From Verrucomicrobiales bacterium (GTDB taxonomy: Bacteria; Verrucomicrobiota; Verrucomicrobiia; Verrucomicrobiales; DEV007), in NCBI GenBank assembly GCA_012960505.1, contig DUBC01000033.1:1-64000 (forward strand): DNA of 64,000 nucleotides. Reading direction: 5' to 3'. Positions within the stretch are counted from its first letter, which is position 1. Each line of letters starts with the position of its first letter. Below the pieces are notes generated by a model. It searched no databases. It was not told the origin of the DNA and saw only the letters and a program-made list of their open reading frames with translations. Below, in pieces: positions 7,247 to 53,902 of the stretch. The position numbers and the translations under genes were made by a program.

Positions 7247-7247
7247 T

Positions 7248-24939: not shown

Positions 24940-24953
24940 GAAGCAAGGGGGCA

Positions 24954-28506: not shown

Positions 28507-29928
28507 TTAGGGCATCCAAATTTTATTCCATGCATTTATGGATCGCTTCAGGTTTTCCCTTGAATCTCCCTTAATGGCATAGCATTGCAGACCGACCGGA
28601 CCATTAAATCCAACACCTTTTAAAAGATTCATTAGTTTGGACTGATCGAAGTTACCCCGGTCAAGAGTCTGTATTAGTTGCTGCCATGAATGGCTACCCT
28701 CTTCAGCGCCACTGATACTTACCTGCCATAAATATGGCGCGGCATTCTCAATGGCTTCTTTCATATTGCTCTTTGGTTCGACCTGCAGGAAATGACAAAG
28801 ATTGAACATGACGCCGACATTTTCCTGGTTTGCCTTTTTGGCAATCCTGACGGCATCACCGATCCGGTCAATATAGAAACCGGCATGAGGATAAAGCACT
28901 ACTTTGAGACCAGATTCCTTTGCTTGACCTGCAATTTCTCTGACAAAATTAACAGCCTCTTCGTCGGTGTTGTTGTTTTTATCTCCTTGAACGTAAAGTT
29001 CAATGACTGTGTCAGTTCCCTTCAATTCCCGGATCAGTTCTGAGATTGCAGGGTCGTAGTTGTGACCATCCTTTTTTAATTTCCCCCCAACATAAAAACT
29101 GAAGACTTTCAGTCCGTTTTTTTTGAAAGTCGACAACCGTTCTTTGATAGGTTCTTTGGATTTTAAATATGCGGAACCAATACCATCGTAACCTAATTCT
29201 TTGAGTGTCTTGGCCTTTTTATTTGCCGTATTAAAATGGACTCCATTATGAAAAGCGAAGAGGAGAGGCCTTGTTTTTACCTTTTCCATTATGGTCAGTT
29301 TTATGTTCTTAAAGTAAACGCTATCTCCATGATTTTGCATTCCAATCCTTCCAATTGTCCGGTGAAGGCCGGGAATTCTTTTCCCATGAACTTTGGCGAG
29401 ATCATCTAGCTTAGTGTCTATGATCTGTTGGCCATTAACCCAGACCATGCACTTTGGACCGACGCAGGTTATTCGAATACTTTGCCACTCACCAGCTGCC
29501 TTGGTAGCGCGGTGGCTGGGTGCTAGTGCCGCATATATTGCACCTGTGAATTGATTTGGTTTAAGATTTTTCCATTTTTCACCCGCATCATCTAGCAATT
29601 GAATCTCGATCCCATCGACATAAGGAATTCCTTCTTTTGGAGCTCTGATAAAAATTCCGCTATTACCGTTCTCTGGAAGATTAAAATCCATACTAAGATC
29701 AAAGTCAGAGAATTCCTGTTTAGTCGCAATCCACTGAGCTCCTTTACCGCCCGTGCACGAAAGTGTTCCGTCTTTCACTTCCCAGTTCTTTGATGCGTCT
29801 CCACCTATCCCTTCCCAGCCATCTAGGTCCTTCCCGTTGAAAAGATCGATAATTCCGGCTTCATTTTTTGCACTAGATAGGGTCAGTGATAGCAGGGTTA
29901 AAAGAAGAACAGTTAAGATGTTAGACAT
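28507..29928 (-). CDS. DUF1080 (3-keto-disaccharide hydrolase-like) fused to TIM-barrel sugar isomerase/epimerase-like domain
   Basis: A 473-residue exported protein (signal to about residue 20, LSSAKNE). Residues about 23-213 are DUF1080/PF06439: IDLFNGKDLDGWEG, GNSGIFIRAP and VDGIEIQLLDD, GRIGMQNHGD. This beta-sandwich family includes 3-keto-disaccharide hydrolases. Residues about 215-473 form a xylose-isomerase-like TIM barrel. The usual metal carboxylates are altered: LYPHAGF where a Glu is expected, NLCHFL in place of IDxxH, and GLQCYA in place of IELEY. Compare the conventional barrel at 37507-38328. The fusion suggests two consecutive steps on one extracytoplasmic chain, probably on an oxidised glycoside; this is inference. 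Confidence 0.82.
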   Translation of the reverse strand: MSNILTVLLLTLLSLTLSSAKNEAGIIDLFNGKDLDGWEGIGGDASKNWEVKDGTLSCTGGKGAQWIATKQEFSDFDLSMDFNLPENGNSGIFIRAPKEGIPYVDGIEIQLLDDAGEKWKNLKPNQFTGAIYAALAPSHRATKAAGEWQSIRITCVGPKCMVWVNGQQIIDTKLDDLAKVHGKRIPGLHRTIGRIGMQNHGDSVYFKNIKLTIMEKVKTRPLLFAFHNGVHFNTANKKAKTLKELGYDGIGSAYLKSKEPIKERLSTFKKNGLKVFSFYVGGKLKKDGHNYDPAISELIRELKGTDTVIELYVQGDKNNNTDEEAVNFVREIAGQAKESGLKVVLYPHAGFYIDRIGDAVRIAKKANQENVGVMFNLCHFLQVEPKSNMKEAIENAAPYLWQVSISGAEEGSHSWQQLIQTLDRGNFDQSKLMNLLKGVGFNGPVGLQCYAIKGDSRENLKRSINAWNKIWMP

Positions 29929-30052
29929 TGTATTATAATTAGAATTTTATCTCTTAATGCCTGAAAATAGCAATGACTATCATAAGTACGCATCATTAAT
30001 CTTTGAACCCGGGAATTCTTAACTGGCCAGATTGTGAGCATCTCACTATAAA

Positions 30053-32632
30053 ATGTTCTTAATGATAAAGGTGATTATTAATGTATGCCCTCTGTTCATT
30101 TTTTCTTTTTGGATAGGTTCTTTGTTAGGGGCACAATCTCTTGGTCCTGAAGAGAATCACCCTCGCCCTTCATACTCCCAGTACTCTGAGAAAGAGATTG
30201 CAGCTCAAGTTGCCGCGGTCCGTAAGAGTAGCCCTCAGATGCATCGTGGAGGTTGGCAATGGGACCGGCTCCTTGAAAGGTACATAGACAGCGCAAGGAA
30301 AGACCCTAATGAATTAAAGATTCTTCGTGCTTATCTGTTGAGTATTCTTGATCGTTATCAGGAAGCAAAGGATAAGGGAGAGGGGATAACATTTACCCTA
30401 TTTTATAATCATAGATCATGGGGAAGTGGTGGAAGGATGAGGATCTACGAGGAACTGATGAAGCAAAATGTGCTTACTGAAGATGAGAAGCGGAATTTCA
30501 GAGCGCTGGTCCTTCACAGTCTCCGAGCTGATTTTAAGGACTATGCTGCGCTGGAAAGAGGAGTCAATAATAGGCCTTATGGGATCAATGGTGGGCCCGC
30601 TATTGCTGTTAGAATGTTTCCTCAGCATCCAAACTCTGTCCGTCATAAGGCATGGCTTGATGCTTTGTGGAGAGAATTAATCGAGTATGGAGACATGACC
30701 GAGACCAATTATTATCCTTATGGTCCGCTTTACCTTCAAGGTCTCATTGACATGGCTTATGGCATGAACAAATTTCAGACTGATAGAAAATTTCTATACT
30801 TTCATTTTCGAAGGTATCTCTATTATGTGCATGGTGGTGGGGTAAGGGGTAACCCGAATTCTAGTGCGAATATTATTCAGGGACAACGTGCAAAAATTTA
30901 TACTGATCCCTGGAATGCTGAATATTATGGCGGCGCTGAGCAGATCAATGATGGGCACGTCTGGTATCGTATGGCAAAAGAATTCAAAGATCCCGAGTTT
31001 CTCTGGGCATCAGAGCAGGTTTGCCTTGGTGGTCGTCCTCCGCAAGGTCATCAGGCTCCTAAAGAGTACCTCGAGGCATATAAGAAAAGATACTTTTGGT
31101 TCATTGAGAGAGGAATCGAACCGAAGGTCCCTCAAGGAGGGTCAGGGATAAGTTATTACAGCCCTCTAAAACATAAGATCCCTGAACGTCTGTATTTGTG
31201 CTCTGGCAGGGAGAGTGGGAACCCCTTCGTGTCCTTTTTCATCTATGACAGGAATAATAATTACATGCACTACTGCGATGATTCTGACGGTAAGCTTTAT
31301 GAATATTGTGTGGACGGTGCAAAATTTCTTCATACGTCCGGCAAGTACACGAGCGGTCGAGCCGGTACCGGTGAAACTGCTTATGATGTGCTGTCTGTAT
31401 TACCGCCTGATATGAAATTTCCCTTGAAGGAGGGATTTGGTATGGATGAACCGACTGGAGAAGCTTGGAAGATGGCTTCGATGTCCATAAAACTGACCCT
31501 AAATTCGAGAGAAGGACCTGACTCAAAGAATTGGAAGTTTGATAATAAAGTAGGATTGTTTCGTCGGACCGATCAGCCCGAACTTGGATACTCTCATGGA
31601 AACATGGATGGTTACTGGCAATTGAATAACGACTATAATCTTAATTCTTTGCGTATTGGTCCGTTCCCATCAGGTACCAAAATTCAAAATTTGAGAATTG
31701 CGGGGCCGAAGGGTGAAAAAATTATAGAGTCCTTCAATTCTATTTCTGATGATCTAGTCATTGAGTTAGTTCAGGGTGAGGGCCGTGTTCAACTCACTGG
31801 AAAGATGCGGGATATCGCCTGCAAGATAGTGAAAGATGGGAGAAGGCCTGGAAAATGTATTGAGGTGGGAAATGTTGGGAAGGATAATGGTATCGCTTTT
31901 GTTTTCAATGACCTTAACGAAAATTTTGACGGGCAGAACGAATTCACCAGAATGTCATATGATTTCAAAGGTAAATCCGAAGGAGGCATCACCCCCAACG
32001 TGAGAACGAATCCTCGCTATTTTACTCCCTTATGGCACCGAGGAGCTATTCTCGTACGCGAAGATCTTCGAGCCGAGAATGAGGGTGAAGACTCTTTCGG
32101 TAAATTCACTATGCGCAATTATTATGGAGCCAACAGCAAATGGTCACGGCAGACTGTTTTGACTGCGGAGGGGTATTTGATCGTTCGTGATCATTATGTG
32201 CCTTGCTCTGACGTGGATGGATACGTTGCATCGCCCTGCTGGTCCATTGCTGTGACGGATCAGAAATCAAAGGATGGAACTCATTGGTTTGATGCTCCTG
32301 CGCGGGACCACGCGTGGTGGCAGAAAAAGAAAAAGAGAGTCATTTTGTATCTTCATCCCCAGAAGGGGCAAGAAATTGGACAGGTCAAGACTCGAACATC
32401 TCAAGACATTGGAGGTGCCAATGTGATGAATACTTTTTCCAAGGCAACTCTCAGATCAGGTGAACCCTTGGTTTGGCTTAGTGTTTTCCGCCCTTACGAT
32501 GAGGGTGAAGACAAAAATAAATTGGCCAGTCAGATTAAGACTCTCGTTGATAATGAAGGGAACGTTTCAGCAAAGATAGGTAATTTGAGAGTTTCCATAG
32601 CCCATGACGGGTCATGGCAGGTCAAAAGATGA
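30053..32632 (+). CDS. Large exported protein, heparinase II/III- or alginate-lyase-like architecture (candidate polysaccharide lyase)
   Basis: An 859-residue protein; ATG 30053 or 30062 both give a signal peptide (core VCPLFIFSFWIGSLLG). The N-terminal ~430 residues are helix-rich with repeated aromatic/His segments (YNHRSWGSGGRMRIYEEL, NYYPYGPLYLQGL, EYYGGAEQINDGHVWYRM), as in an (alpha/alpha) toroid. Residues about 480-850 are beta-rich and include FTPLWHRGAILVRED and MRNYYGANSKWSRQ, GYLIVRDHY, in the style of the heparinase II/III C-terminal sheet. I could not match it to a named lyase family. It stands alone on the plus strand inside a minus-strand cluster and ends 8 bp from the stop of the convergent dehydrogenase gene. 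Confidence 0.6.
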   Translation: MFLMIKVIINVCPLFIFSFWIGSLLGAQSLGPEENHPRPSYSQYSEKEIAAQVAAVRKSSPQMHRGGWQWDRLLERYIDSARKDPNELKILRAYLLSILDRYQEAKDKGEGITFTLFYNHRSWGSGGRMRIYEELMKQNVLTEDEKRNFRALVLHSLRADFKDYAALERGVNNRPYGINGGPAIAVRMFPQHPNSVRHKAWLDALWRELIEYGDMTETNYYPYGPLYLQGLIDMAYGMNKFQTDRKFLYFHFRRYLYYVHGGGVRGNPNSSANIIQGQRAKIYTDPWNAEYYGGAEQINDGHVWYRMAKEFKDPEFLWASEQVCLGGRPPQGHQAPKEYLEAYKKRYFWFIERGIEPKVPQGGSGISYYSPLKHKIPERLYLCSGRESGNPFVSFFIYDRNNNYMHYCDDSDGKLYEYCVDGAKFLHTSGKYTSGRAGTGETAYDVLSVLPPDMKFPLKEGFGMDEPTGEAWKMASMSIKLTLNSREGPDSKNWKFDNKVGLFRRTDQPELGYSHGNMDGYWQLNNDYNLNSLRIGPFPSGTKIQNLRIAGPKGEKIIESFNSISDDLVIELVQGEGRVQLTGKMRDIACKIVKDGRRPGKCIEVGNVGKDNGIAFVFNDLNENFDGQNEFTRMSYDFKGKSEGGITPNVRTNPRYFTPLWHRGAILVREDLRAENEGEDSFGKFTMRNYYGANSKWSRQTVLTAEGYLIVRDHYVPCSDVDGYVASPCWSIAVTDQKSKDGTHWFDAPARDHAWWQKKKKRVILYLHPQKGQEIGQVKTRTSQDIGGANVMNTFSKATLRSGEPLVWLSVFRPYDEGEDKNKLASQIKTLVDNEGNVSAKIGNLRVSIAHDGSWQVKR

Positions 32633-32640
32633 GGTTCTTT

Positions 32641-34344
32641 TTATTTAAAAGTTGCCTCGCTGAAATCTAATTTGTAGATGGTTCCTTTGTCGTATCCTAT
32701 TGCGTAGAGGTTGCCATTACGGTCTTTACCAAAGGCAACGATCCGGTCCGGGCATTGGCCGATTTCTCTTATAGTTTCTAGTTTCCGGTTATTTTGAGTT
32801 AATCCCCATATCTTTTTTGATTGATAATCTGCACAGATATAAACCCCTTCAAAGGAACTCTTTTCATTGGTCTTGGATCGGATCACATATCCCCCAGTGA
32901 TGGAAACGCCATGCGATCGACGGAAAGAGATTATTGGGGCAATGAAATTACTATTCTCTTTCCTGTATTGAGTTGAAAACAGTTCAAAACCCTCATAAAC
33001 GTTCCACCCGTGATTTTCTCCTGAACGAACAATCGTGACTTCCTCGAAACGGTTCTGTCCAACATCACCTACCCACAAATCTCCATTAGTTGAGTCAAAA
33101 CTGAACCTCCATGGTTGACGCAGTCCGTATGCATATATCTCACGAAGGACTTTTTTATTGGGGTGATTATTAAAGGGATTCTCTTTCGGAATTGAATAGG
33201 ATTTTCCAACTCCTTTGTTGTTCACATCGATCCGCAGTATCTTTCCTGAAAATGATTCCAGATCCTGAGCATGGCCTAGCGGATCTTCTTGTGGACCTCC
33301 ATCACCCATTCCAATATATAAATAACCGTCCGGGCCAAACTCTATACCACCTCCATGGTGGAACTGAGTGGCAACTTCAAACTCGAGGATTTTTCTGGTA
33401 GGATTTTCTGAGTCTCTTAGAAAATCTTCAGAGGCAATCCTTTCACCGATGGCCATGCCTCTATAGTTTTCTGCCTTTGTCTCATACATTAAATAATATT
33501 TTCGGTTTTCAGAAAATTCAGGGTGAAAAGCAAAGCCAAGGAGCCCTTCATCATTTGTCACATAGACTTCATTCGGTATGGCAACGAATGGAATTTTCTT
33601 TTCGATACCGTCTTTATTCTTTTTTAATAGGGAAACAGAGGCTCTGCTCTTTTCAACGATGACAAATGCATCGTCAATTGTGGGGTGCTGACCGAACCAG
33701 ATCGGTTTCTCAAGATTAATATTTTTCCCAAAGAAAGGCAGAAGTTTAATTTGTTTGGAAAGTGCTTTTATCTTTTCAGGTGTGCCGTTTTTATTTAGCC
33801 CCTCTGACTGGGGTTGCTTTAGGCTTTCTAAATAAGCGATCAGGTCTGTAAATTCCTGTAATTCAAGTTTAGCGTGTAGCCCGACAGGCATTAAAGAAAC
33901 AGGATTTGTGTACTGTTTCTTAATGTTGGATTTGAGGATAGTAGTAATTTTGTTCCCAAGGTTGGAAAGGGTAATTTCCTTTTTGGTCGTTGATTTCAGG
34001 ATTCCAGTGAACGCTTTCCGATCTTTCGTTTCAATGACAGTAGTATCATAACCTGTCATAATTGAGGCAGAAGGTTCAATGACGGACTTAATAAGGTCAG
34101 CACGCGAGAATTTATCACCCGCTGCAAACAGGTCAGGGCCTACACTCTTCGAACTACCGTCGACAGTATGACACTGAGAACATAAGGCCCTATCACCTTG
34201 AAAGATCTTACGTCCAAGTTCCAGATTACCTTCTTTTCTGGACGCGCTTTCTTGATACTTTTCTATTTTTGTTTTTTCAGCACTGATGGTGAAACTACTG
34301 GGAATCAAAAAGATTCCCAGCAGAATGAGACGGGGAAAGTGCAT
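32641..34344 (-). CDS. Cytochrome c domain fused to PQQ-dependent sugar dehydrogenase-like propeller
   Basis: A 567-residue exported protein (signal core LILLGIFLIPSSF). Residues about 40-175 are a heme-binding domain of the PSCyt3 type with CSQCH (Cys55, Cys58, His59) and a likely Met ligand in SLMPVG. From about 210 a six-bladed glucose/sorbosone dehydrogenase propeller follows: FHPEFSENRKYY, EFGPDGYLYIGMGDGG, KILRIDVN, YGLRQPWRFSFD, WVGDVGQNRFEEV. In soluble aldose dehydrogenases PQQ and calcium bind this fold, and the heme next to it can accept the electrons directly. The sugar is unknown. It converges on the candidate lyase gene, and its start is 65 bp downstream of the stop of the LamG giant on the same strand. 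Confidence 0.85.
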   Translation of the reverse strand: MHFPRLILLGIFLIPSSFTISAEKTKIEKYQESASRKEGNLELGRKIFQGDRALCSQCHTVDGSSKSVGPDLFAAGDKFSRADLIKSVIEPSASIMTGYDTTVIETKDRKAFTGILKSTTKKEITLSNLGNKITTILKSNIKKQYTNPVSLMPVGLHAKLELQEFTDLIAYLESLKQPQSEGLNKNGTPEKIKALSKQIKLLPFFGKNINLEKPIWFGQHPTIDDAFVIVEKSRASVSLLKKNKDGIEKKIPFVAIPNEVYVTNDEGLLGFAFHPEFSENRKYYLMYETKAENYRGMAIGERIASEDFLRDSENPTRKILEFEVATQFHHGGGIEFGPDGYLYIGMGDGGPQEDPLGHAQDLESFSGKILRIDVNNKGVGKSYSIPKENPFNNHPNKKVLREIYAYGLRQPWRFSFDSTNGDLWVGDVGQNRFEEVTIVRSGENHGWNVYEGFELFSTQYRKENSNFIAPIISFRRSHGVSITGGYVIRSKTNEKSSFEGVYICADYQSKKIWGLTQNNRKLETIREIGQCPDRIVAFGKDRNGNLYAIGYDKGTIYKLDFSEATFK

Positions 34345-34409
34345 TCAATTTGAGTAGATCAAGCCACTTAGAGTTGTAGTGGTTTATGGTTTCTTTTCTT
34401 CAGATTTTT

Positions 34410-37478: not shown

Positions 37479-37506
37479 TTAATGGAGTGGTTTTTTTTAA
37501 ATAATT

Positions 37507-38328
37507 TTAGTCGCGAAGTCCGACCTGTTGCATGAGGTCATTCGTTGCGTTGTAGGCTTCTTCGACCCATTCTACGATTTTTGATGGATCAGGTGAGTAT
37601 TCGAGCTCTATTGAAACAGTGCCTTCAAATTCTAGTTCTTTGATGGCTTGGAGATAAGGAGCGAATTTAACGACTCCTCTTCCAGGTGGTAAGTCCCCAT
37701 GAACTTTTCCATCACAGTCGCTGATATGGACGTGAGTGGCTTTATTTTTCAGTTTTTCTAGTTCCGCGGGGGACGTGTCTGCAAGGACCAAATGACTCAC
37801 ATCAATGTTGGCTTGGACGTTTGGCATTGCGCAATCATCAATGAACCGAACCATTTCCGGTATACTGTTAAGCAGGCTCAATCTGAAAGGTTCGAGTTCC
37901 AGAGCAATGTCCAGACCAAGTTCGCCGGCATACTGACCCAGTTCTTTGACTCCCTCGACTCCCCATTCCCACTGAGCTTCTGGTGGAATGACTTCGCGTT
38001 GCCAAATATATTCTCCAAGAACGAGGAGAAGGTTCTTTGAATCAAATTTCTTTGCTAAATCGAGAGATTTCTTTGCCCTACTGATATGATAGTCCCTGAC
38101 AGGATCATTAAAATCAATCAGGCCCGCTGAGACGACCACGGTCGATGTGATAGGGAGGCTGTTTTCTTCGCAGGTGCTTTTAATAAGATTAACTTCATCT
38201 TCAGTAATAGTCATTGCTTCAGTGAAGATATCGACCGCATCAAAGCCTATCCTTGAAATGTGTTCGAGGCCTGTTTTTGTGTCGACTCCTGCCTGCCCAA
38301 AAGCGCTGTTTATGATTCCAAGTTTCAT
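37507..38328 (-). CDS. Sugar phosphate isomerase/epimerase-like TIM barrel (cytoplasmic)
   Basis: A 273-residue protein with no signal peptide. It is a complete xylose-isomerase-like (AP endonuclease 2) barrel with the classical four metal ligands: Glu146 in LELEPF, Asp176 in NIDVSH, His201 in HVHISDCDG and Glu241/243 in SIELEY. Relatives include ketose 3-epimerases, hydroxypyruvate isomerases and inosose enzymes, so the substrate cannot be named. It lies 22 bp downstream of the PhyH dioxygenase gene on the same strand, so the two are probably co-transcribed. Confidence 0.85.
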   Translation of the reverse strand: MKLGIINSAFGQAGVDTKTGLEHISRIGFDAVDIFTEAMTITEDEVNLIKSTCEENSLPITSTVVVSAGLIDFNDPVRDYHISRAKKSLDLAKKFDSKNLLLVLGEYIWQREVIPPEAQWEWGVEGVKELGQYAGELGLDIALELEPFRLSLLNSIPEMVRFIDDCAMPNVQANIDVSHLVLADTSPAELEKLKNKATHVHISDCDGKVHGDLPPGRGVVKFAPYLQAIKELEFEGTVSIELEYSPDPSKIVEWVEEAYNATNDLMQQVGLRD

Positions 38329-38350
38329 TTTTTAGTTAATTTAGTTTTAG

Positions 38351-39184: not shown

Positions 39185-39422
39185 TTAATTAACGATCTAT
39201 GGATAAAGGTTTCTCCCCAAGTTAACTAATGGGGAATTATCATATTGAGCAATCTGAGACCAATACTCAAGCCCGATTCGTTAGAGAAAAAGGATTCCTT
39301 TCGGTTTTGTTAGTAATTATCCCTAGTTATATAAATGACACGGTGAAGCTAATCATAGGGTTCAAAGTCTTTGATCCGTTCATGCCAAGCCCTGTATAGG
39401 CTCTATAAATTGTAGCTATATA

Positions 39423-40637: not shown

Positions 40638-40799
40638 TTAAGTATATTAGCATAATTGTATAGACCTAGTCTCAAGTAATGTTGGGAAAACGAAGGAGGT
40701 TTTGGATGTTGTGGAAGAGTAGGTGTCACGCTACGATCCGAATACGAGACAGGGATTTTGATCTTTTCAAATATCAAGCGGAGCAGTAGATTCTTTTTT

Positions 40800-41948: not shown

Positions 41949-41962
41949 TTATTAGGTAATTT

Positions 41963-43102: not shown

Positions 43103-43392
43103 GTGCTCGTAATAATTATAGAGAATAGATGACCTTAGAATGAAATATTCATCAACGTCAATTGACTTCGTGTATCATGCTCACTGTAGTATTAGGGAGC
43201 AGCTGTATTAAACGGTGATCAAATATGAGTGAATCCGGTCCATAAAAAACATACTACTTTGCTTAGGTTATTGTAGCATGAGATGCCTATTTCTAATAAT
43301 TGTAATCTGATCCTTGAAGAAGACTCAGTATTCATATTTAAATGACTACTAAGCTTTCCTTTCTTAAAACGAATGACTACTGAATTTGCCCG

Positions 43393-45255
43393 ATGATTAA
43401 GAAGATACTTTTGTTTGGTTTTATAATTCCACTGTGTTCATGTCTTAATGTATGTGCCAAGCCGAACATACTTTGGATTTCTGCAGAGGACATTGGACCT
43501 CATTTTGGTTGTTATGGTGATCCGCATGCGATTACTCCCAACATTGATAAATTGTCATCCGAGGGAACCCGTTTTACTAACGCTTATACGACTGCGGGTG
43601 TTTGTGCTCCTTGTCGCAGTGGAATCATAACTGGCATGTATCAGAACAGTATTGGCACCCATCATATGAGGTGCAATGCCGTCCTCCCGTCCTGGCTCAA
43701 ACCTTTTCCAATTCTTCTTAGGGGGTCTGGATATTACTGCACAAATAACTCAAAGACGGATTATCAGTTTTCAAGACCATCGACTAGAGAAATCTGGGAC
43801 CAGAGCGGTTCAAAAGCTCATTGGAAGAATCGAAAGGAAGGGCAACCTTTTTTTGCAGTATTTAATTATACTGGATGTCACGAGAGTGGAATCGCTTCCG
43901 AAGGTAAGTACAAGGCTGTTACGAGAAACCTAAAACCTGAACAGAGGCAGGATCCGTCCAAGTTAGAGACATTGCCTCCGTATTATCCGGACACTTCCGT
44001 GGTCCGTGAGGACTGGAAAAGAAACTATGAACTGATTACAGCAATGGATTCTTGGGCAGGATCTCTTATCAAAGAAATTAAAGATGCTGGGCTTTACGAG
44101 GAAACAATCATATTTTTTTGGGCTGACCATGGTGTGGGATTGCCTCGTGCAAAGCGTTGGCTTTATGGTTCTGGAACACATATTCCTTTGATCGTTCGTG
44201 TTCCGGGTAAGGAGGGAGGACGAGTCGATACGCAATTGGTAAGCTCAGTTGATCTGGGACCTACGGTATTAAACCTAGCTGGGATTGAAGTTCCTAACAA
44301 ATTGCAAGGCAGAGCATTTCTTGGTCAGAAATTATCAGCTCCTCGCCGTTTTGTTTTTGGTGCCAGAGATAGAATGGATGAAAGATACGATATTATTCGT
44401 TCTATTTTTGATGGGCGTTATCGATACATTCGGAACTTTGAACCTTTGAAGCCCTACTATCAGTACATGAATACGCCAGAAAAAGGAGCCACGATGCGTG
44501 AGATAAGGAGAGCCGAGGAGGAGGGATCCCTGACTGAAACAGGCAAGATTTTTTCAACTAGCAAAAAACCTGTCGAAGAACTTTATGATTTTAAGAATGA
44601 TCCACATGAAATCCGCAATTTATCGGGTGATCCTGAGCACTTAGCGATCTTAAAGAAAATGCGTGTTCATTTGGCACAATGGCAATCTGAAATAGGTGAC
44701 ATTGGGCTCATTCCTGAGGCGGAAATCGAAATTAGAGAGAAGAAGTCCGGTTCTAGATTTGAAATTATGAATGGAGAATTATCTAATAAGGATCAAGTCC
44801 AGCGGTTGGTATCAGTTGCTACAAAAGCATCAGAAGGGCCCTCGGCTCTTGGAGAACTGATAAATGCCATTAATGATGATGATCCAGTCATACGTTATTG
44901 GTCAGTGACTGGTATCGGTAATATCGGAGAGGCGGCTAGGGGAGAAGCGTTAAAATTATCGATGAAGGCGATGAAGGATAAATCGCCTAGTGTACGAATC
45001 GCTGCTGCTCGTGCAGTGGCCCGCCTGGGTGATGCGGATGCAGCACTTGAAGTTTTAAGAGAAGAGCTAAAATCTGAGCATCAGTGGGGAAGACTTGCGT
45101 CGGTGATCGTCATTGACGAGATGGAGGAATCGGGCCGAAAAATGGTCAAGGATTTGAAGGAGGTGATAAGTACTAGGCAACCTAATAAATATATTCTTAG
45201 AGTTGCTAACCGAGCACTCAATGATTTGCTCGGGACCGACAACAAGGTCCCTTAA
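43393..45255 (+). CDS. Exported sulfatase (N-sulfoglucosamine sulfohydrolase-like) with C-terminal HEAT repeats
   Basis: A 620-residue protein with signal peptide (core ILLFGFIIPLCSC, cleavage near CAKPN). The formylglycine site is Cys71 in CAPCRSGIITG, so the position normally Ser or Thr is Cys. Metal motifs SAEDIGPHFGCYG and FWADHGVGLPRAKR are of the heparan-N-sulfatase (SGSH) type, as is GTHHMRC. Residues about 470-615 hold HEAT repeats (DDDPVIRYWSVTGIGNIG, SPSVRIAAARAVARLG), likely a protein-interaction scaffold. Its partner at 45299 has the same sulfatase and HEAT layout, 43 bp downstream. Confidence 0.88.
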   Translation: MIKKILLFGFIIPLCSCLNVCAKPNILWISAEDIGPHFGCYGDPHAITPNIDKLSSEGTRFTNAYTTAGVCAPCRSGIITGMYQNSIGTHHMRCNAVLPSWLKPFPILLRGSGYYCTNNSKTDYQFSRPSTREIWDQSGSKAHWKNRKEGQPFFAVFNYTGCHESGIASEGKYKAVTRNLKPEQRQDPSKLETLPPYYPDTSVVREDWKRNYELITAMDSWAGSLIKEIKDAGLYEETIIFFWADHGVGLPRAKRWLYGSGTHIPLIVRVPGKEGGRVDTQLVSSVDLGPTVLNLAGIEVPNKLQGRAFLGQKLSAPRRFVFGARDRMDERYDIIRSIFDGRYRYIRNFEPLKPYYQYMNTPEKGATMREIRRAEEEGSLTETGKIFSTSKKPVEELYDFKNDPHEIRNLSGDPEHLAILKKMRVHLAQWQSEIGDIGLIPEAEIEIREKKSGSRFEIMNGELSNKDQVQRLVSVATKASEGPSALGELINAINDDDPVIRYWSVTGIGNIGEAARGEALKLSMKAMKDKSPSVRIAAARAVARLGDADAALEVLREELKSEHQWGRLASVIVIDEMEESGRKMVKDLKEVISTRQPNKYILRVANRALNDLLGTDNKVP

Positions 45256-45298
45256 CCTCTGATTTTATTTTCAACAAACCGAAACTAATACTGACGTT

Positions 45299-47848
45299 AT
45301 GATTTATTTAAGATTCTTATGTGTGTTCACCTTCTTTCTGATGATGGTGTTCAGGGCCGATGCAGAGTGGATTGAGCTTTTTGATGGTAAGACTACGGAG
45401 GGTTGGAAACCGCGATCTGAGGTCATTTCTTTTGATGCTAAGGGAGGTGAGCTTCATTTACTCTCGAAGACAAACTGTTGGGTCACTACTGAACGTCAGA
45501 TGAGTGATTTTGAGGCAGAGATTGAAGTTCTTATGCCTAAAGAAGAGGGTTTTAATTCCGGATTAGCCTTCCGCTGCATTGGCAATCAGGGTCGTCCGAA
45601 AGGTTACCAGTGCGAGATTGATCAGCAAAAGCCAGCCGGAGTTTATGGGATCGGTAATGGTGGTTGGATTTATCCTGGAAAGGGTCAGGGCAAAGAGTTC
45701 GCTGATAAGATTCGTGGTAATCTTAAGAAAGATGATTGGAACCATTTTAGAGTGAGGGCTGTCGGAGATAGGATCCAAACATGGTTGAATGGAAAGCCCG
45801 TATCAGACATTAAGCATGGGAAAATATTAAAAGGCTATTTTGGTATTCAGCATCATGGGAAGGGAGGAACCGTTCGTTTCAGAAATATTAGGGCACGTGA
45901 AATCTCTAATAAAAAAGTGACGCAAGAAATTCAGAAGAGACCCAATATCTTGTGGATCACGGCTGAGGATATGAGTCCGACACTTGGTTGTTATGGAGAT
46001 AAATATGCAATCACTCCGAACATTGATAAGTTGGCCAGTTCCTCAACAAAATACTCCAATGCTTTCGCGGCTTCTCCTGTCTGCTCTCCTTCAAGGTCGG
46101 TCCTGATTACTGGAATGCATAACGTCTCTACAGGCACTCATCAGATGAGGTCCGGATTTCCTTTGCCGACAGGAGTCAAGGGCTTTCCAGCCCATATGAG
46201 GGAATCAGGCTATTTTACAACTAATAACGTCAAAACAGATTATAACAGCAGTGATGCTCCACGCCTGGTCAAAGAATCATGGGATGAGTCAAGTCCTAAG
46301 GCTCACTGGCGCAATTCCAAGCGCGGGCAAGGGCAACCGTTCTTCTCTGTTTTTAATATTATGACCAGTCACCAGTCCCGTTCAATGGTCTGGCCTTATC
46401 CTGTTTTCAAAAAACATGTTCAATCCAAATTGTCGGCTACTGAAATTCATGATCCTAAGAAGGCTCCGGTCCCTGACTATTATCCTGACACGCCTCTCAT
46501 AAGAAAAACGATTAGCCGGTATTATGATTGTGTCACGGTCATGGATCAGCGGGTCGGTGAAATTATGAGTCAATTGCGCGAAGACGGATTAGCAGATAAT
46601 ACTATTGTTTTTTTCTTTTCTGACCATGGTTCAGGAATGCCTCGTCATAAGAGGTTATTGCATGATAGTGGGATGAAAGTTGCCATGCTGATACATGTTC
46701 CTGAGAAATGGAAGCATCTGCGTCCAACTGCTCCCGGTTCCGCGACGGATCGATTGGTGAGTTTTGTTGATTTTCCACCATCAGTTCTCGGATTAGTTGG
46801 TCTCAAATCACCAAAATATATGCAAGGGATTCCTTTTATAGGCGTTGGCTCTACCCAGAAAAGAAAATTTGTTTTTGGTAATAGAGACAGGGTCGATGAA
46901 GTATTTGATTGTTCCAGATCAGTACGAAACAAGAGATGGTTATACATACGTAATTTTCATCCCCATCTTTCTTGGAACCAGCCGTCAGTATTCTCCGATC
47001 TTGGTGAGATACGTCATGAAATTTCCCGAGTTTTCCGGGAGGATCCTGATTCTTCTAGTGTTGCCCAGAGGCACTATGCCGGCCCCACAAGGGCAACCGA
47101 AGAGTTTTATGATTGTGATGCTGATCCGGATAATACACGTAACTTGATTTCTGGAAAGTTGTCAGATGAGGCTAGCAAAGCATTACAGAGATTACGGTTA
47201 AGCTTAGTTGAACACCGCAATGCAGTAGGAGACCTGGGCGCTTTGCCTGAAAGTGAGATGCGCCGTTGGGTAAAGAATGAAGGCAGCCCAATGAGAGACA
47301 TTGTTATGGGCAAGACGGACCATTCGCCCGACCTCGAGAGGGCATGGTCAGCTGCTGATAAGGTAGGCAAGTCTGATTCCAAGGAACTTTTGAAGCTTCT
47401 TAAAAAAGGAAATGTTAATGAGAGGTATTGGGCTGCAGTTTCTCTTAGAAATGGGCACTTTGATGAAAAGAGCATCCAGCAAAGCGCATTTGAATGGATT
47501 CAGGACGTTGCACCTTCTGTTCGAATTGAGATTGCCGGCTGGTTGGCATTTTTTCCTGAAAAAAGAGAAGCTTCTCTTAATCGATTAGTGAAAGATCTTG
47601 AGCACCCTGACTGGGCAGTCGCTTTGCAAGCGTGTCGTGCAATTGAATTATTAGGCCCAAAGGCAAGGCCGGTCCTAGGAATAATGAAGAAACTTTACGC
47701 GAAGACCCGTCATGAACCTGGAGATAATAATTTTTTCATAGCTTTCTCAAGTGGTGCATTTCTTGATGAGCTTGGGGAAAAAACAGAACCTTGGGATTTT
47801 TCACCAGGGGCCGGGAGTTTCATGCCTGCAAAGAAGAAATCTAATTGA
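45299..47848 (+). CDS. DUF1080 - sulfatase - HEAT triple fusion (exported)
   Basis: An 849-residue protein with signal peptide (core FLCVFTFFLMMVF, cleavage near ADAEW). Residues about 23-202 are DUF1080 (IELFDGKTTEGWKP, FNSGLAFRCIG, DWNHFRVRAVGDRIQTWLNG). Residues about 215-640 are an SGSH-like sulfatase with formylglycine Cys262 in CSPSRSVLITG, TAEDMSPTLGCYG and FFSDHGSGMPRHKR. Residues about 700-815 are HEAT repeats (ERYWAAVSLRNG, WAVALQACRAIELLG). The combination suggests desulfation and cleavage of a keto-glycoside on one chain. DUF1080 in tandem with a sulfatase is known in these phyla, but I do not recall this exact triple order. Confidence 0.87.
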   Translation: MIYLRFLCVFTFFLMMVFRADAEWIELFDGKTTEGWKPRSEVISFDAKGGELHLLSKTNCWVTTERQMSDFEAEIEVLMPKEEGFNSGLAFRCIGNQGRPKGYQCEIDQQKPAGVYGIGNGGWIYPGKGQGKEFADKIRGNLKKDDWNHFRVRAVGDRIQTWLNGKPVSDIKHGKILKGYFGIQHHGKGGTVRFRNIRAREISNKKVTQEIQKRPNILWITAEDMSPTLGCYGDKYAITPNIDKLASSSTKYSNAFAASPVCSPSRSVLITGMHNVSTGTHQMRSGFPLPTGVKGFPAHMRESGYFTTNNVKTDYNSSDAPRLVKESWDESSPKAHWRNSKRGQGQPFFSVFNIMTSHQSRSMVWPYPVFKKHVQSKLSATEIHDPKKAPVPDYYPDTPLIRKTISRYYDCVTVMDQRVGEIMSQLREDGLADNTIVFFFSDHGSGMPRHKRLLHDSGMKVAMLIHVPEKWKHLRPTAPGSATDRLVSFVDFPPSVLGLVGLKSPKYMQGIPFIGVGSTQKRKFVFGNRDRVDEVFDCSRSVRNKRWLYIRNFHPHLSWNQPSVFSDLGEIRHEISRVFREDPDSSSVAQRHYAGPTRATEEFYDCDADPDNTRNLISGKLSDEASKALQRLRLSLVEHRNAVGDLGALPESEMRRWVKNEGSPMRDIVMGKTDHSPDLERAWSAADKVGKSDSKELLKLLKKGNVNERYWAAVSLRNGHFDEKSIQQSAFEWIQDVAPSVRIEIAGWLAFFPEKREASLNRLVKDLEHPDWAVALQACRAIELLGPKARPVLGIMKKLYAKTRHEPGDNNFFIAFSSGAFLDELGEKTEPWDFSPGAGSFMPAKKKSN

Positions 47849-47918
47849 AAGTTTTCTGGCACTGATCAATTTTCATTATTGGCTTTTCCAAGTTCAAAGG
47901 CTTTGGTAAATTTAAGCC

Positions 47919-48950
47919 ATGAATGTTGGTATAGTTGGATACGGTTGGGTCGCTGGAGCTCATATTGATGCACTTAATTCGATTGATGGGATCGAGGTGA
48001 CTGCAGTTTATTCTTCTCGTTCTCAGGATGAGAATGAGCTGTCAAAGAAACATGGTTCATCTATCAAGGCATTCCAGGACCTTGGGGGAATGCTGTCATC
48101 TGATGATATTGAAGTAATTTCGATTTGTAGTTATCCGGACCAACACAAGGAACATGCAATTGCTGCTGCGAGAGCGGGAAAGCATCTTATTCTGGAAAAA
48201 CCACTAGCATTGTCCATTGAAGATTGTTCCGAAATTCGTTCAGCTGTTCTGGAAGCGAATGTTCGAACTTGTGTATGTTTTGAGTGTCGATATTCAAGTC
48301 AGTTCCTTGTAACTAAGTCAGTCATTGATGATGGGTTACTTGGGAAAATTCACTATGGGGAAGTGGATTATTATCATGGTATTGGACCATGGTATGGACA
48401 GTTTCGTTGGAACACCGGAAAAGAGCACGGAGGAAGTAGTTTACTTTCGGCTGGATGTCATGCACTTGATGCGTTGCTCCTTTGTATGGGAGGTGATGTT
48501 GAGGAGGTTAGTTCATATGCTTCGGTTTCAGGAAGCTCTACTTTTTCTGATTACGAATATCCCACGACCACGACCACTATAATGAAGTTCACTGACGGGC
48601 GAGTGGGCAAAGCAACCTCATGCATCGATTGCCTTCAACCTTATTACTTTCATACTCATCTTGTCGGTTCTGAGGGGAGCCTACTGGACAATAAGTTTCA
48701 TTCTGAAAAGCTCTCTACTGACAAAGGTTCTTGGAGTTCCTTATCAATGAAAATGTTGGATTCCGGTGATGTGAGTGACCATCCCTACACGACCCAGTTC
48801 CAGGCGTTCTTTGATTCGATGGCTAAGGGAGAAGAAATGCCACTAACCTCAATCAATGAAGCTTATAAGAGCTTTGAAGTTGTTTTTGCCGCTGACAAAT
48901 CAGTTGAGCTTGGCAGGCCTGTGAAAATTTCAGAAATTAGTGGTGACTAA
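47919..48950 (+). CDS. Gfo/Idh/MocA-family oxidoreductase (cytoplasmic)
   Basis: A 343-residue protein without a signal. The Rossmann motif is VGIVGYGWVAGAH (Gly6, Gly8, Gly12 pattern), followed by the family motif EKPLALSIEDC and a C-terminal alpha/beta domain with GGSSLLSAGCHALDALL, where the catalytic His lies. NAD(P)-dependent oxidation of a sugar hydroxyl is the usual reaction. The end overlaps the start of the PIG-L gene (GTG 48940), and NagB-like follows in turn, so all three form one operon on amino sugars by inference. Confidence 0.88.
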   Translation: MNVGIVGYGWVAGAHIDALNSIDGIEVTAVYSSRSQDENELSKKHGSSIKAFQDLGGMLSSDDIEVISICSYPDQHKEHAIAAARAGKHLILEKPLALSIEDCSEIRSAVLEANVRTCVCFECRYSSQFLVTKSVIDDGLLGKIHYGEVDYYHGIGPWYGQFRWNTGKEHGGSSLLSAGCHALDALLLCMGGDVEEVSSYASVSGSSTFSDYEYPTTTTTIMKFTDGRVGKATSCIDCLQPYYFHTHLVGSEGSLLDNKFHSEKLSTDKGSWSSLSMKMLDSGDVSDHPYTTQFQAFFDSMAKGEEMPLTSINEAYKSFEVVFAADKSVELGRPVKISEISGD

Positions 48951-49734
48951 AAATGCAATCGCAATAGTCGCCCATCCGGACGACATTGAATTTCTCTTTG
49001 CGGGCACGATGCTTCAATTGGCTGCTCGCGGATGGAACCTCCATTATATTACCATTGCCAGTGGCAATTGTGGTTCCTTAGATATGGATGCTGAAGAGAC
49101 TCGGCAAGTTCGTCAGGATGAGGCCCAACGCGCGGCAGCATACTTGGGTGCTAAGTATTATCCTCCTCTATGTGATGATCTAGAGATTGTCTACTCCGTG
49201 GATCTACTCCGGCGCTTGTCTTCAGTGATTCGGTCAGCGGCTCCACATATTGTTCTGACACATTCTCCAGAAGATTACATGGTAGATCATATGGAAACGT
49301 CTCGGTTAGCCGTCACTGCAGCTTTCACTCATGGTATGCCTAACTTTGTTACCGATCCTTCGACTAGTCATCTGGATGAACATCAGACCAGCGTATATCA
49401 TGCCATGCCTCATGGATTGAGGGATGGGCTGAGAAAGAAAGTAATCCCTGAATCGTACGTTGATATTTCGTCAGTCATGGATAGCAAAAGAGTTACTCTC
49501 GCAGAGCATAAGAGCCAGCATTCCTGGCTCGAATCTAGTCAGGGTATGAATTCTTATCTCATGTCTATGGAGGATATGTCCCGTGAACTCGGAGAAATGT
49601 CAGGTAAATTTGATTATGCTGAGGGATGGAGGAGAAGATCTCATCTTGGTTTTAGCCGAACTGAAGAGGATCCGCTTTCAGAAGCTCTCGGAGAATTGTA
49701 CTATTTAAACCCGGAATATAATTTGGATAATTAG
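48940..49734 (+). CDS. PIG-L/LmbE-family N-acetylglucosaminyl deacetylase-like protein
   Basis: A 264-residue cytoplasmic protein starting at GTG 48940 (GTG 48943 is also possible), overlapping the upstream gene by 11 bp. The zinc motif AHPDDIEF lies at about 10-17, with the second ligand His in the HMETS segment after SPEDYMVD. Family enzymes deacetylate GlcNAc-containing compounds. It is 7 bp upstream of the NagB-like gene, and deacetylation followed by deamination of an amino sugar is the natural reading. Confidence 0.85.
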
Positions 49735-49741
49735 ACCTGAA

Positions 49742-50674
49742 ATGGCCAGAAAACTAAGCACAATAGCACCTGAATGGTGGGATTACACTACCCTCGATGA
49801 TGATTTAATTCGTGATGTTGCTTCACTAAGTATGGAGGACTTGGAGCAACTTTCCTGTCCAGGTTTCAAGGTAGTCATGTATGATACTTTGGAAGATTTT
49901 TATTTGGCCGAGGCTCTTGAATACATTAGTGCCTGGCAATCCTCTACCTCTGATAATCCTGTGGGGATATGTGGTCCTATAGGCCCTACAGAACAATTGC
50001 CACTCGTTGCAAGACTCGTGAATGAGCTCAGAGTGGATCTTTCTTCAGCACATTTTTGGGGGATGGATGAATGGTTAGGTGAGGATGGGAGGGAAGTACC
50101 AATTTCACATCCTCTTTCCTTTGAGAGAACTGATAGGGAGCTGTGCTTTGATCGCATTTCCGAGGATTTGCAAATGCCTGAGTCAAATATGCATTTTCCT
50201 GCTGCGGATACTGAGGAGTACATCAATTCATGGGAAGGGGTCCGATGCGCAGTGATGCAGGGGGGGCAGGGTGATATTAAGCATTGGGCTTTTAACGATC
50301 CTCCGCGCCGTGAAGGAGAATATAAGGAATCTCCTCCATCACCCGATCGATACAGGAAACTCTCAACACGAGTCGTGGAACTGCATCCCATTACCTTGGC
50401 GCAGAACGCTAGGACCTCAGGCGGCGGCAATATTACTTTGGTTCCTGAAAAAGCGATCACGGTCGGTCCTGTCCAAACATGGAAATCAGATAAGGTTTCA
50501 ATCTGGCAGGCAGGCACTCATGATAATCCATTTGGTCAGCGGTTGACGGCTTTAATGATTTCTAAAGGCATTGCTGACGCTGCTGTGCCGATGTCATTGT
50601 TGGCGGATCATCCAAATGTGCAGTTCAATTATTATCGGGGCGGCCTAGGAAGTTGTGATGTTGAAATGCATTAA
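49742..50674 (+). CDS. Glucosamine-6-phosphate deaminase/isomerase-like protein (NagB fold, altered active site)
   Basis: A 310-residue cytoplasmic protein. The NagB landmarks are recognisable but changed: [11 protein letters not shown] replaces the usual Gly-rich sugar-phosphate loop, MDEW (Asp109) corresponds to the MDEY of E. coli NagB, and [15 protein letters not shown] replaces GxGxDGHIAFNEP. In the last motif Asp178 and His181 are separated by one extra residue, and the catalytic Glu is Asp186. It may act on a different (for example oxidised or unphosphorylated) amino sugar. It is the third gene of the operon with the oxidoreductase and PIG-L deacetylase. Confidence 0.8.
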
Positions 50675-50731
50675 TCACTAGAGCGTTCGAATTAACAAGA
50701 CACGTTACACTAGTTCGTGATACTGTAAGGA

Positions 50732-52105
50732 ATGGCTAAAAATATTCTGACCCGACGTGCATTACTGGCTGCTTCAGGAGCAGGCACCTCACTCAATATT
50801 CTTCGTTCTGGTACCTTGTACGGTGAAGAGCCTAAGACTTTGGATAAACTGTCAGTGGCTTTTATCGGGATGGGTGGGCAGATTCAGGGGCACGTTGCGA
50901 ATATACTTAATCAGGGGCAGAACGTTGCCGCTTTTTGTGATGTGGATAAGAGACAGATTGATAATTCCAAGAAACGGCACGGGAATAAGGTTAACAAGGT
51001 CAAAGAATATGAAGATTACAGAGAATTGATTGAGAAGGAGAAATCAGTCGATGCAGTTGTAATAGCAACGCCCGACCATTGGCATGCTCCGATCTGCAGG
51101 GCAGCCATGAAGGCGGGGAAACATGTCTATTGCGAGAAGCCACTGACTCATACAATTAAGGAAGCTAGAGAACTTAGAGAACTTACTAAGGCTTCTAAGG
51201 TCGTAACTCAGACCGGCAATCAGGGCAGCGCATCTTCTAATTTACGCCGTAGTATGGAATTAATTGCTGCTGATGTTTTTGGTCCGATCCGCGAGATTCA
51301 TGTTTGGCATCCAAAGCACAATTGGCCAAGTGGTGGTGTCCGACCTGCCGGTTCAGATCCAGTGCCAAAAGGATTGAACTGGGATTTCTGGTGTGGAACT
51401 GCACCTGTGCGACCTTTCAAAGAAAGCATCTACCATCCGGCCAAGTGGCGTGGATGGTATGATTTTGGTAACGGCTTCATAGGCGATTTCTGCTGCCACT
51501 CATTTAACTTAGCCCTCAGATCGCTCAGTTTGGATTATCCTTCTAAGATTTCTTTCACTGGTGAGGGATTGGGTACTGAAACCTTCGCGAAGTCATGCTC
51601 AGTTAAATATCACTTTTCCAAAAACAAGGAGCGATCCCATGATGTCGCATTAAATATTTATACGGGTGGAGGAAAAGATGTTCCACCGGACCATGCTGTA
51701 GAGGCAGCTGTCAAAACTTTCGGTAGCTTGCCTAGGGTAGGTTGTATTTTTATTGGCGATAAAGGAATGCTTTCTTCAGGACTATGGAACTCTCAGTGCT
51801 ATATAAAGATGAACGGAGAAGAGAAGTACATCGGTGAAGGGAATCACGATGCTGCAAAGATCGTTCCCAAAACTATTCCTAGATCAAGGGGGCATATGCA
51901 TGAGTGGGTCGATGCTTGCAAAGGAAAAGGAAAGACCTTTGCTGATTTTGAGCATGGAGGACATCTCACGGAAATCGGCCTTTCCGGAATCGTGGCCTTG
52001 AAGATGCAGAAAGAAATTGAGTGGGACGGGCAAGCGATGAAAGTAAAAGGTCATCCGGAAGCGGATGCTTACATTGGTAAAGAAAATAGAAAAGAATGGC
52101 TTTAG
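50732..52105 (+). CDS. Tat-exported Gfo/Idh/MocA-family oxidoreductase
   Basis: A 457-residue protein with a twin-arginine signal (LTRRALLAASGAG, Arg8-Arg9). The Rossmann motif is AFIGMGGQIQGH and the EKPL motif is in YCEKPLTHT. Further family marks include DHWHAPICRAAM, QTGNQG and GWYDFGNGFIGDFCCHSFN. This exported branch, common in Planctomycetota and Verrucomicrobiota, carries its cofactor across the membrane already folded. It follows the NagB-like gene by 57 bp. Oxidation of a sugar ring hydroxyl in the periplasm is the likely reaction. Confidence 0.87.
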   Translation: MAKNILTRRALLAASGAGTSLNILRSGTLYGEEPKTLDKLSVAFIGMGGQIQGHVANILNQGQNVAAFCDVDKRQIDNSKKRHGNKVNKVKEYEDYRELIEKEKSVDAVVIATPDHWHAPICRAAMKAGKHVYCEKPLTHTIKEARELRELTKASKVVTQTGNQGSASSNLRRSMELIAADVFGPIREIHVWHPKHNWPSGGVRPAGSDPVPKGLNWDFWCGTAPVRPFKESIYHPAKWRGWYDFGNGFIGDFCCHSFNLALRSLSLDYPSKISFTGEGLGTETFAKSCSVKYHFSKNKERSHDVALNIYTGGGKDVPPDHAVEAAVKTFGSLPRVGCIFIGDKGMLSSGLWNSQCYIKMNGEEKYIGEGNHDAAKIVPKTIPRSRGHMHEWVDACKGKGKTFADFEHGGHLTEIGLSGIVALKMQKEIEWDGQAMKVKGHPEADAYIGKENRKEWL

Positions 52106-53882: not shown

Positions 53883-53902
53883 GTAGGGATCAATTGTTGA
53901 TG

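Follow-up and report, generated by a model that had tools for sequence, protein, structure and literature searches.

A putative six-gene operon for sulfated amino-sugar use in a Verrucomicrobiales bacterium, with a three-gene core that recurs across phyla

We describe six genes that follow one another on the plus strand at positions 43393-52105 of a 64,000-nucleotide stretch of Verrucomicrobiales DNA (the window), in the order S1_8-type sulfatase, DUF1080-sulfatase, Gfo/Idh/MocA oxidoreductase (GFO1), PIG-L deacetylase, NagB-like protein and second Gfo/Idh/MocA oxidoreductase (GFO2) (Table 1). The likeliest reading, to which we give about even odds, is that these genes make up a single operon that serves the use of a sulfated N-acetylhexosamine, probably of the GlcNAc type. 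The cytosolic trio of GFO1, PIG-L and NagB-like is the conserved core, and the sulfatases and GFO2 are a periplasmic front end added on in two related genera. This core recurs in many genomes of several phyla and seems to be undescribed as a unit: no description of the trio was found in a literature search whose coverage lay outside most subscription journals. Should the cassette prove to be a route for amino sugars, then a large share of the uncultured glycan degraders would use a GlcNAc-type step that is missed by annotation based on NagA and NagB.

Table 1. Position and assignment of the genes discussed in the text
Feature	Position	Strand	Basis and remarks
DUF1080 + AP_endonuc_2 TIM-barrel fusion	28507..29928	-	Pfam; exported; outlying, pathway membership unproven
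Exported 859-aa protein, weak candidate for a polysaccharide lyase of (alpha/alpha)-toroid fold	30053..32632	+	Low-confidence fold matches
Xylose-isomerase-like TIM barrel, ketose 3-epimerase-like	37507..38328	-	PF01261, 1.7e-35; no signal; pathway membership unproven
S1_8-type sulfatase with HEAT repeats, exported	43393..45255	+	PF00884, PF16347, PF13646; gene 1 of the putative operon
DUF1080 (PF06439) N-terminal to a second S1_8-like sulfatase, HEAT repeats	45299..47848	+	Pfam
GFO1, Gfo/Idh/MocA oxidoreductase, predicted cytosolic	47919..48950	+	Pfam; no signal peptide
PIG-L/LmbE deacetylase, GTG start	48940..49734	+	PF02585
NagB-like protein of the NagB superfamily, 310 aa	49742..50674	+	Profile and fold; no Pfam model
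GFO2, Gfo/Idh/MocA, twin-arginine leader TRRALLAA	50732..52105	+	Pfam; BT2158/8tdf-like
S1 sulfatase, convergent, adjoining the 3' end of the operon; not an operon member	52113..53924	-	Pfam

Six genes form one compact unit

A sequence-only reading of this DNA had proposed a dispersed set of oxidative glycoside and amino-sugar genes within 24 kb. Apart from a heparinase-like candidate, discussed below, the enzymes it named are all present, as judged by Pfam for all but the NagB-like protein, which is recognised by profile and fold. Six of them are not dispersed: the gaps between them are 43, 70, -11, 7 and 57 bp, with the PIG-L start overlapping the GFO1 end by 11 bp and the NagB-like gene beginning 7 bp after PIG-L, and we accordingly expect the six to be co-transcribed. 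Scans for promoters and terminators yielded no signal that stood out clearly from shuffled sequence. The complete order is conserved in genus g1 and in one genome of genus g17 (G025, locus L115), and two more g17 contigs retain it up to the contig ends. The S1_8-type sulfatase gene is kept in loci L111-L113, L115, L116, L140 and L141, and the DUF1080-sulfatase occupies the equivalent position in both genera. For the core, this conserved gene order excludes chance. Of the amino-sugar pathway suggested earlier, what stands is a deacetylation and deamination module joined to sulfatases and an exported Gfo/Idh enzyme in two genera.

The putative front end combines S1_8-type sulfatases with a BT2158-like oxidoreductase

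The sulfatase at 43393-45255 is closest among solved structures to the S1_8A/B/C sulfatases (9bb9/9bbd/9bba, E 3e-76 to 1e-61). SGSH (4mhx) comes only next, at 1e-32, and the earlier label of heparan-N-sulfatase-like is thus a loose fit. Its formylglycine motif CAPCR and the CSPSR of the DUF1080-sulfatase both fit C-x-P-S/C-R; the S1_8 placement was judged from the closest solved structures together with this motif. Both operon sulfatases, which are 36% identical to one another, resemble in subfamily and motif the lambda-carrageenan S1_8A-C enzymes and N-sulfoglucosamine sulfohydrolase, and differ from solved S1_8 enzymes by C-terminal HEAT repeats and, in one case, an N-terminal DUF1080 domain. 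S1_8 sulfatases act on C2 substituents, including N-sulfoglucosamine (PMC12549532; PMC10154612). The convergent sulfatase is only 24% identical to the one at 43393 and is a conserved neighbour in genus g1.

For GFO2, the best NCBIfam model is the BT_2158_fam glycoside 3-dehydrogenase (298 bits over residues 8-440, under the curated cut-off of 750; the NCBIfam scores of the unit's proteins are under equivalog cut-offs), and the closest solved chains are PDB 8tdf/8tdh (E 3e-66, residues 37-443). Assignment to GH109 was rejected, as 2ixa and 6t2b match only the N-terminal part at 1e-9 and 5e-8. DUF1080 (PF06439) is present in two proteins, at 3.6e-51 and 3.3e-33. Some DUF1080 proteins are known as 3-keto-glycoside hydrolases, for example the 3-ketotrehalose hydrolase BT2157 (PMC9007349). 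On these sequence grounds, the front end may plausibly use oxidative 3-keto chemistry.

The likeness to the BT2157-BT2160-type pathway of B. thetaiotaomicron (BT_2158_fam, BT_2159_fam) lies in an exported Gfo/Idh enzyme that resembles BT2158, DUF1080, the TIM-barrel sugar enzymes and the cytosolic Gfo/Idh enzyme. Here, however, sulfatases, a deacetylase and a NagB-like putative deaminase are added, DUF1080 occurs joined to a sulfatase or a TIM barrel and has no free-standing gene in the operon, and GFO2 scores well below the family cut-off. Published operons of TIM barrels and Gfo enzymes carry out oxidation, elimination, hydration and reduction; the TIM barrels eliminate and hydrate, and 3-keto-glucose is then reduced by a Gfo enzyme (PMC10628242). 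The Agrobacterium tumefaciens GlycDH/OGE/HYD/Gfo operon described there shares this logic, but it has neither amino-sugar steps nor sulfatases, and its TIM barrels are homologous to those of the window only at superfamily level.

A conserved core of oxidoreductase, deacetylase and NagB-like protein

Gene neighbourhoods in relatives were obtained by homology-weighted gene calling and tblastn. The trio is common to Verrucomicrobiota, Planctomycetota, Kiritimatiellota and Bacteroidota. Of 73 loci, 39 have PIG-L immediately upstream of the NagB-like gene, and 34 contain PIG-L together with GFO1. The sequence-only reading had made itself depend on co-occurrence of these families in relatives, and its PIG-L/NagB-like part survives: among 142 relatives, 62 have both genes, 6 PIG-L alone, 3 the NagB-like gene alone and 71 neither (Fisher 3e-29, kinship not being corrected for and the genes often being on different contigs). 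GFO1 co-occurs more loosely. A close relative of it is found in 94 of the 142, and GFO1 occurs in 36 relatives that have no NagB-like gene, where the neighbours examined are unrelated, for example a PDH E1-beta-like gene. A strict tie of GFO1 to the trio is thereby ruled out, and its role may be separate. Its residues E93-K94-P95, H181 and D184 are invariant. In most trio loci beyond g1 and g17, the immediate neighbours include no DUF1080, S1_8 sulfatase or GFO2 gene, which argues that the core is independent of all three.

The NagB-like protein belongs to the NagB superfamily by profile comparison. It has no Pfam match, none of 52 family members matches PF01182, and its score against TIGR00502 is 23 bits (cut-off 236.9). 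In a Foldseek search with its AF2 model (pLDDT 88), the top matches were all GlcN6P deaminases (E 5e-15, TM 0.6-0.8). The protein is only 18-20% identical to solved NagB enzymes. The catalytic residues of E. coli NagB are D72, D141, H143 and E148, and its phosphate ligands are R172 and K208. In this numbering, D72, H143 and R172 align with D109, H181 and R224, all invariant; E148 is conservatively replaced by D186, D141 is I179, and the K208 region is rebuilt and cannot be aligned. Because of these last two changes, it is uncertain whether the substrate is phosphorylated. Conservation of the family is strong, with a mean column identity of 82% in 52 sequences and 58-95% identity across the phylum; the gene is single copy and present in 115 of 388 phylum genomes sampled (about 30%; 70 of 199 genera). 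It also occurs in Planctomycetota and Bacteroidota.

In PIG-L, the metal/base motif and the third His ligand are intact: H12 P13 D14 D15 (HPDD), D116 and H117 are invariant in 42 sequences. The nearest solved chain is a diacetylchitobiose deacetylase, and the best NCBIfam model is BshB1, at 98 bits against a cut-off of 182.5. PIG-L is rare in the source genome (2 copies). The same genome also encodes a canonical NagB, which adjoins a PIG-L gene at a second locus; a third locus has NagB, a Gfo/Idh gene and a NagA-like gene. These two loci repeat the amino-sugar theme with other families, although the presence of a canonical NagB also weighs against the reading of the operon given below.

By analogy with NagA/NagB catabolism of GlcNAc, deacetylation would be followed by a deaminase/isomerase of NagB fold. 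The deacetylase here is PIG-L rather than NagA, and the set includes an oxidoreductase. No NagA match over cut-off was found in the source genome. A simple rule by which the trio replaces NagA is nonetheless not supported, since over-cut-off NagA matches occur in genomes with and without the NagB-like gene. NagB and PIG-L functions are also paired in NCBIfam PRK02122.1 (653 positions), which we presume to be a NagB-PIG-L fusion; here the genes are separate, the lineage is distinct and far more conserved, and the canonical NagB lies elsewhere in the genome.

A possible route and its alternatives

Sulfate would be stripped outside the cytoplasm by the two S1_8-type sulfatases, and there exported GFO2 would also oxidise the sugar, probably at C3, after which a DUF1080 or TIM-barrel partner may cleave the keto-glycoside. 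In the cell, GFO1 would turn the keto sugar back to its hydroxy form, or oxidise it; PIG-L would take off the N-acetyl group, and the NagB-like protein would isomerise and deaminate the 2-amino sugar to a ketose and ammonia. If the core is tied in this way to DUF1080 and an exported glycoside 3-dehydrogenase, the recently recognised pathway of oxidative glycan cleavage would reach as far as sulfated amino sugars, and the reason why these genomes carry DUF1080 and Gfo/Idh genes by the dozen would become testable. Counting against the route, no gene for a sugar kinase was identified within the window. A further proposal, which we think rather improbable, is that the NagB-like proteins are a new multi-phylum class of amino-sugar deaminase that works with PIG-L and Gfo/Idh and whose substrate is a 2-amino sugar, either unphosphorylated or in the 3-keto form. 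Such a system would stand beside the NagA/NagB route as an alternative that needs no kinase and is assisted by redox chemistry.

The same core could serve plain amino-sugar use with no 3-keto chemistry, an explanation that is somewhat unlikely but the strongest of those that compete for the core. PIG-L would deacetylate free GlcNAc or GalNAc and the NagB-like protein deaminate it, with GFO1 in unrelated redox or epimerisation and DUF1080 as a LamG-like carbohydrate-binding add-on of the sulfatase. In Bacteroidota, a GH20 hexosaminidase, an MFS transporter and a sugar-type regulator adjoin the PIG-L/NagB-like pair, with no DUF1080 neighbour identified; the neighbours found, which also speak for the route above, point to N-acetylhexosamine catabolism. 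DUF1080 is moreover joined to many kinds of protein in the source genome (39 matches, in open frames of 96 to 1218 aa). The full-length similarity of GFO2, which closes the operon, to 8tdf/8tdh and the BT_2158 model speaks for 3-keto chemistry instead, as does the DUF1080-TIM fusion located in the same region. Quite unlikely is that the trio recycles envelope amino sugars or makes, for example, a bacillithiol-like conjugate, with the sulfatases as incidental neighbours. The single copy and high conservation of the NagB-like gene are unlike typical polysaccharide-locus enzymes, PIG-L matches BshB1 best, and some trio loci lie beside RNase HII or seryl-tRNA synthetase genes. The presence of the NagB-like gene is patchy, however (65 of 142 relatives, and under a third of the phylum sample), and the links to GH20, sugar transporters and a regulator, and the tight sulfatase synteny in two genera, fit this poorly. 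At other loci, a Nuc_H_symport transporter lies near the PIG-L/NagB-like pair.

Heparin or heparan sulfate as the substrate, as the sequence-only reading suggested, is not favoured and has the lowest probability of these readings. S1_8 takes in N-sulfoglucosamine sulfohydrolases (PMC10154612), but its substrates also include 2-O-sulfated galactose and xylose (PMC12549532). The heparinase-like candidate, which we take to be the protein at 30053-32632, has no heparinase or other Pfam match and no PDB sequence match. Its model mostly matched heparinase, alginate and GAG-lyase folds, but is poor (pLDDT 54), so the fold is suggestive at most. With no recognisable lyase and several C2 substituents covered by S1_8, specificity for heparin was rejected. 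The P. heparinus heparin locus has S1_9 and S1_11 sulfatases and GH88 (PMC10154612); the ORFs of the window that were scanned with Pfam gave no match to GH88. Other acidic, acetylated, sulfated glycans would suit the two glucuronoyl-esterase-like proteins (41963, 55164), the pectate lyase (60882) and the BD-FAE and SASA esterases of the region.

Outer genes and genomic background

Finally, the whole 24 kb does not hold as a single pathway: the DUF1080-TIM fusion is restricted to genus g1, and DUF1080 and Gfo/Idh genes (47 matches for the latter) are common in the genome, which makes their presence weak evidence. Two DUF1080 and two Gfo/Idh genes in 24 kb are only mildly unusual (Poisson 0.02-0.03 per such window, this one having been picked after the fact). 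For the outer genes at 28507-41948, it is a substantial possibility, a little short of even, that their association mostly reflects the background of a CAZyme-rich genome, as these counts and the one-genus fusion would suggest. The TIM barrel at 37507-38328, adjoined by a PhyH gene, matches NCBIfam 5-keto-L-gluconate epimerase and psicose 3-epimerase below cut-off. Against mere background, g17 too has SASA, LRR, TIM, BD-FAE, BNR and GCE homologues near its HEAT-repeat sulfatase, DUF1080-sulfatase, GFO1 and PIG-L genes. In two genomes of that genus (G033 and G039), the TIM half of the fusion occurs by itself, at a distance of about 15-16 kb from GFO1.

A compact, conserved six-gene unit

The genome under study is a 4.01 Mb draft; those of its close relatives that have names are Verrucomicrobiales bins from metagenomes, apparently of marine origin. 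It carries six same-strand genes, a putative operon, spaced by 43, 70, -11, 7 and 57 bp. A sequence-only reading had described a dispersed set of 3-keto glycoside and amino-sugar genes. As a whole this observation holds, and Pfam confirms every named family except the NagB-like protein, which was recognised by profile and fold comparison. The layout is compact rather than dispersed for these six genes.

Features of the window discussed in the text
Feature	Position	Strand	Remark
Six-gene unit	43393-52105	+	in the order of the next six rows
S1_8-type sulfatase with HEAT repeats	43393-45255	+	
DUF1080-sulfatase fusion	45299-47848	+	
GFO1	47919-48950	+	Gfo/Idh/MocA protein without signal
PIG-L deacetylase	48940-49734	+	
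NagB-like protein	49742-50674	+	
GFO2	50732-52105	+	Gfo/Idh/MocA protein with twin-arginine leader
DUF1080-TIM fusion	28507	opposite to unit	~13 kb away
TIM barrel	37507	opposite to unit	~5 kb away
Candidate lyase	30053-32632		859 aa
Glucuronoyl-esterase-like protein	41963-43102		near unit
Glucuronoyl-esterase-like protein	55164-56405		near unit
Pectate lyase	60882-62024		near unit

Because DUF1080 and Gfo/Idh domains are abundant genome-wide (39 and 47 matches), their clustering in 24 kb is weak evidence: the Poisson probability for two of each is ~0.02-0.03, in a window picked post hoc. PIG-L has 2 matches genome-wide and PF01182 has 3, the window NagB-like gene not being among the latter. 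Strong evidence against a chance grouping is provided by the comparative data. In the gene-neighbourhood comparison that had been proposed earlier, the six-gene order is retained in genus g1, to which this genome belongs (loci L111-L113 and L116). In a second genus, g17, one contig (L115) has all six genes in that order, and two more (L140 and L141) show it up to the contig limits. The g17 block also retains the SASA, LRR, TIM, BD-FAE, BNR and GCE neighbours within ~20 kb, its TIM barrel being unfused to DUF1080.

The PIG-L/NagB-like pair across phyla

Searching one-genome-per-species contigs with the NagB-like protein gave at least 588 confirmed stretches. The best 80, which are biased towards the window sequence because they were chosen as best matches, come from Verrucomicrobiota, Planctomycetota, Kiritimatiellota, Bacteroidota and Omnitrophota. 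Of the 80, 73 extend 900 bp or more upstream of the gene; among them, a PIG-L orthologue lies immediately upstream on the same strand in 39, and PIG-L and GFO1 orthologues are both present in 34.

The predicted co-occurrence in relatives is borne out for this pair: among 142 relatives, 62 have both genes, 3 NagB-like alone, 6 PIG-L alone and 71 neither (Fisher 3e-29, uncorrected for shared ancestry), and in many co-occurring genomes the two are on separate contigs. GFO1 is more widely spread (94/142); in genus g2 it is present without the pair, beside neighbours that look unrelated. Phylum-wide, the NagB-like gene is found in 115 of 388 genomes, as a single copy each, at 58% identity or more. 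Random mis-binning as the source of the multi-phylum spread appears unlikely, since the Bacteroidota copies form one well-supported group in the tree.

No relevant Pfam model matched any of 52 NagB-like members, and the score against NCBIfam nagB is 23 bits (cut-off 236.9). AlphaFold2 gave a good model from an input of 52 sequences (pLDDT 88). Every top-ranking PDB match to it is a glucosamine-6-phosphate deaminase (E 5e-15, 18-20% identity). In profile alignments, the E. coli NagB residues D72, H143, E148 and R172 correspond to D109, H181, D186 and R224, with D141 replaced by I179 and the K208 region rebuilt. Isomerase/deaminase chemistry is therefore plausible, on a substrate that may or may not be phosphorylated. 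Across 42 sequences, every metal and base residue of PIG-L is kept; GFO1 retains EKP and a His/Asp pair.

Possible oxidative front end and substrate

We class the unit as a variant form of amino-sugar catabolism, for which an oxidative front end is hypothesized. From the pathway proposed earlier, deacetylation and deamination stand in outline and the oxidative part is plausible; heparin was too specific. Among solved structures, GFO2 is closest to 8tdf and 8tdh (E 3e-66, 400 residues), presumably from published work on a 3-keto pathway; among NCBIfam models it scores best against the BT_2158 glycoside 3-dehydrogenase (298 bits, under the 750 cut-off). Fitness data tie the DUF1080 family to 3-ketoglycoside hydrolysis (PMC9007349). 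By analogy, an A. tumefaciens operon (oxidoreductase, two TIM-barrel proteins, Gfo reductase) performing oxidation, elimination, hydration and reduction (PMC10628242) offers possible roles for the TIM barrels and cytosolic GFO1. The closest subfamily of the first sulfatase is S1_8, whose members act on C2 substituents, namely N-sulfoglucosamine, 2-O-sulfo-xylose or 2-O-sulfo-galactose (PMC12549532, PMC10154612); C2 desulfation followed by C3 oxidation would be a reasonable order.

In Bacteroidota-clade loci (L080, L058, L108), among them that of Segetibacter koreensis, the pair adjoins a GH20 beta-hexosaminidase; L080 additionally contains an MFS transporter together with a sugar regulator of the LacI/AraC type. 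Nucleoside-symporter-type MFS transporters lie near other loci, L152 among them, and at L107 (by clustering also at L087 and L103) the NagB-like gene is accompanied by a xylose-isomerase-like TIM barrel and a further Gfo/Idh. Elsewhere in the genome under study, a canonical NagB sits directly beside the second PIG-L gene (L131:7647-9328, G000:C30), and a NagB-type deaminase, a Gfo/Idh oxidoreductase, a NagA-like protein (TIGR00221, 156 bits, without a Pfam match) and an Nramp-type transporter form a row (L132:7139-11171, G000:C36). In the latter, a parallel set, the deacetylase is of another kind, and both sets repeat the theme with other families. Judged by gene content, these neighbours and the two sets point to N-acetylhexosamine catabolism.

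In most of the relatives G010-G141, the TIGR00502 NagB match sits in an open frame of ~620-750 aa, which suggests a NagB fusion, perhaps with PIG-L in the manner of PRK02122.

Pfam and PDB searches found no sequence relatives of the 859-aa candidate lyase. In a model of low confidence its fold is similar to those of GAG, alginate and heparin lyases; the protein occurs mainly in genus g1, and a distant paralogue exists. The glucuronoyl-esterase-like pair and the pectate lyase hint at a uronate-containing substrate.

Other genes of the window

The simple formylglycine motif pattern, present in the other five window sulfatases, was not found in the PF00884 sulfatase at 57748-59094. The TIM-barrel epimerase-like gene adjoins a phytanoyl-CoA dioxygenase-like gene (37507-39184), a pair retained in genus g1 (L139). 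At 4535-7246 lies a sodium:solute symporter whose N-terminal part is a NanM-type kelch domain; PSD1/PSCyt2 and DUF1501 genes follow it (7203-11098). Two large CotH-kinase proteins carry lamin-tail and chitobiase-C-terminal-like domains (11119-13863 and 19666-25074), and two Band_7/SPFH-domain genes lie side by side at 17136-19210.
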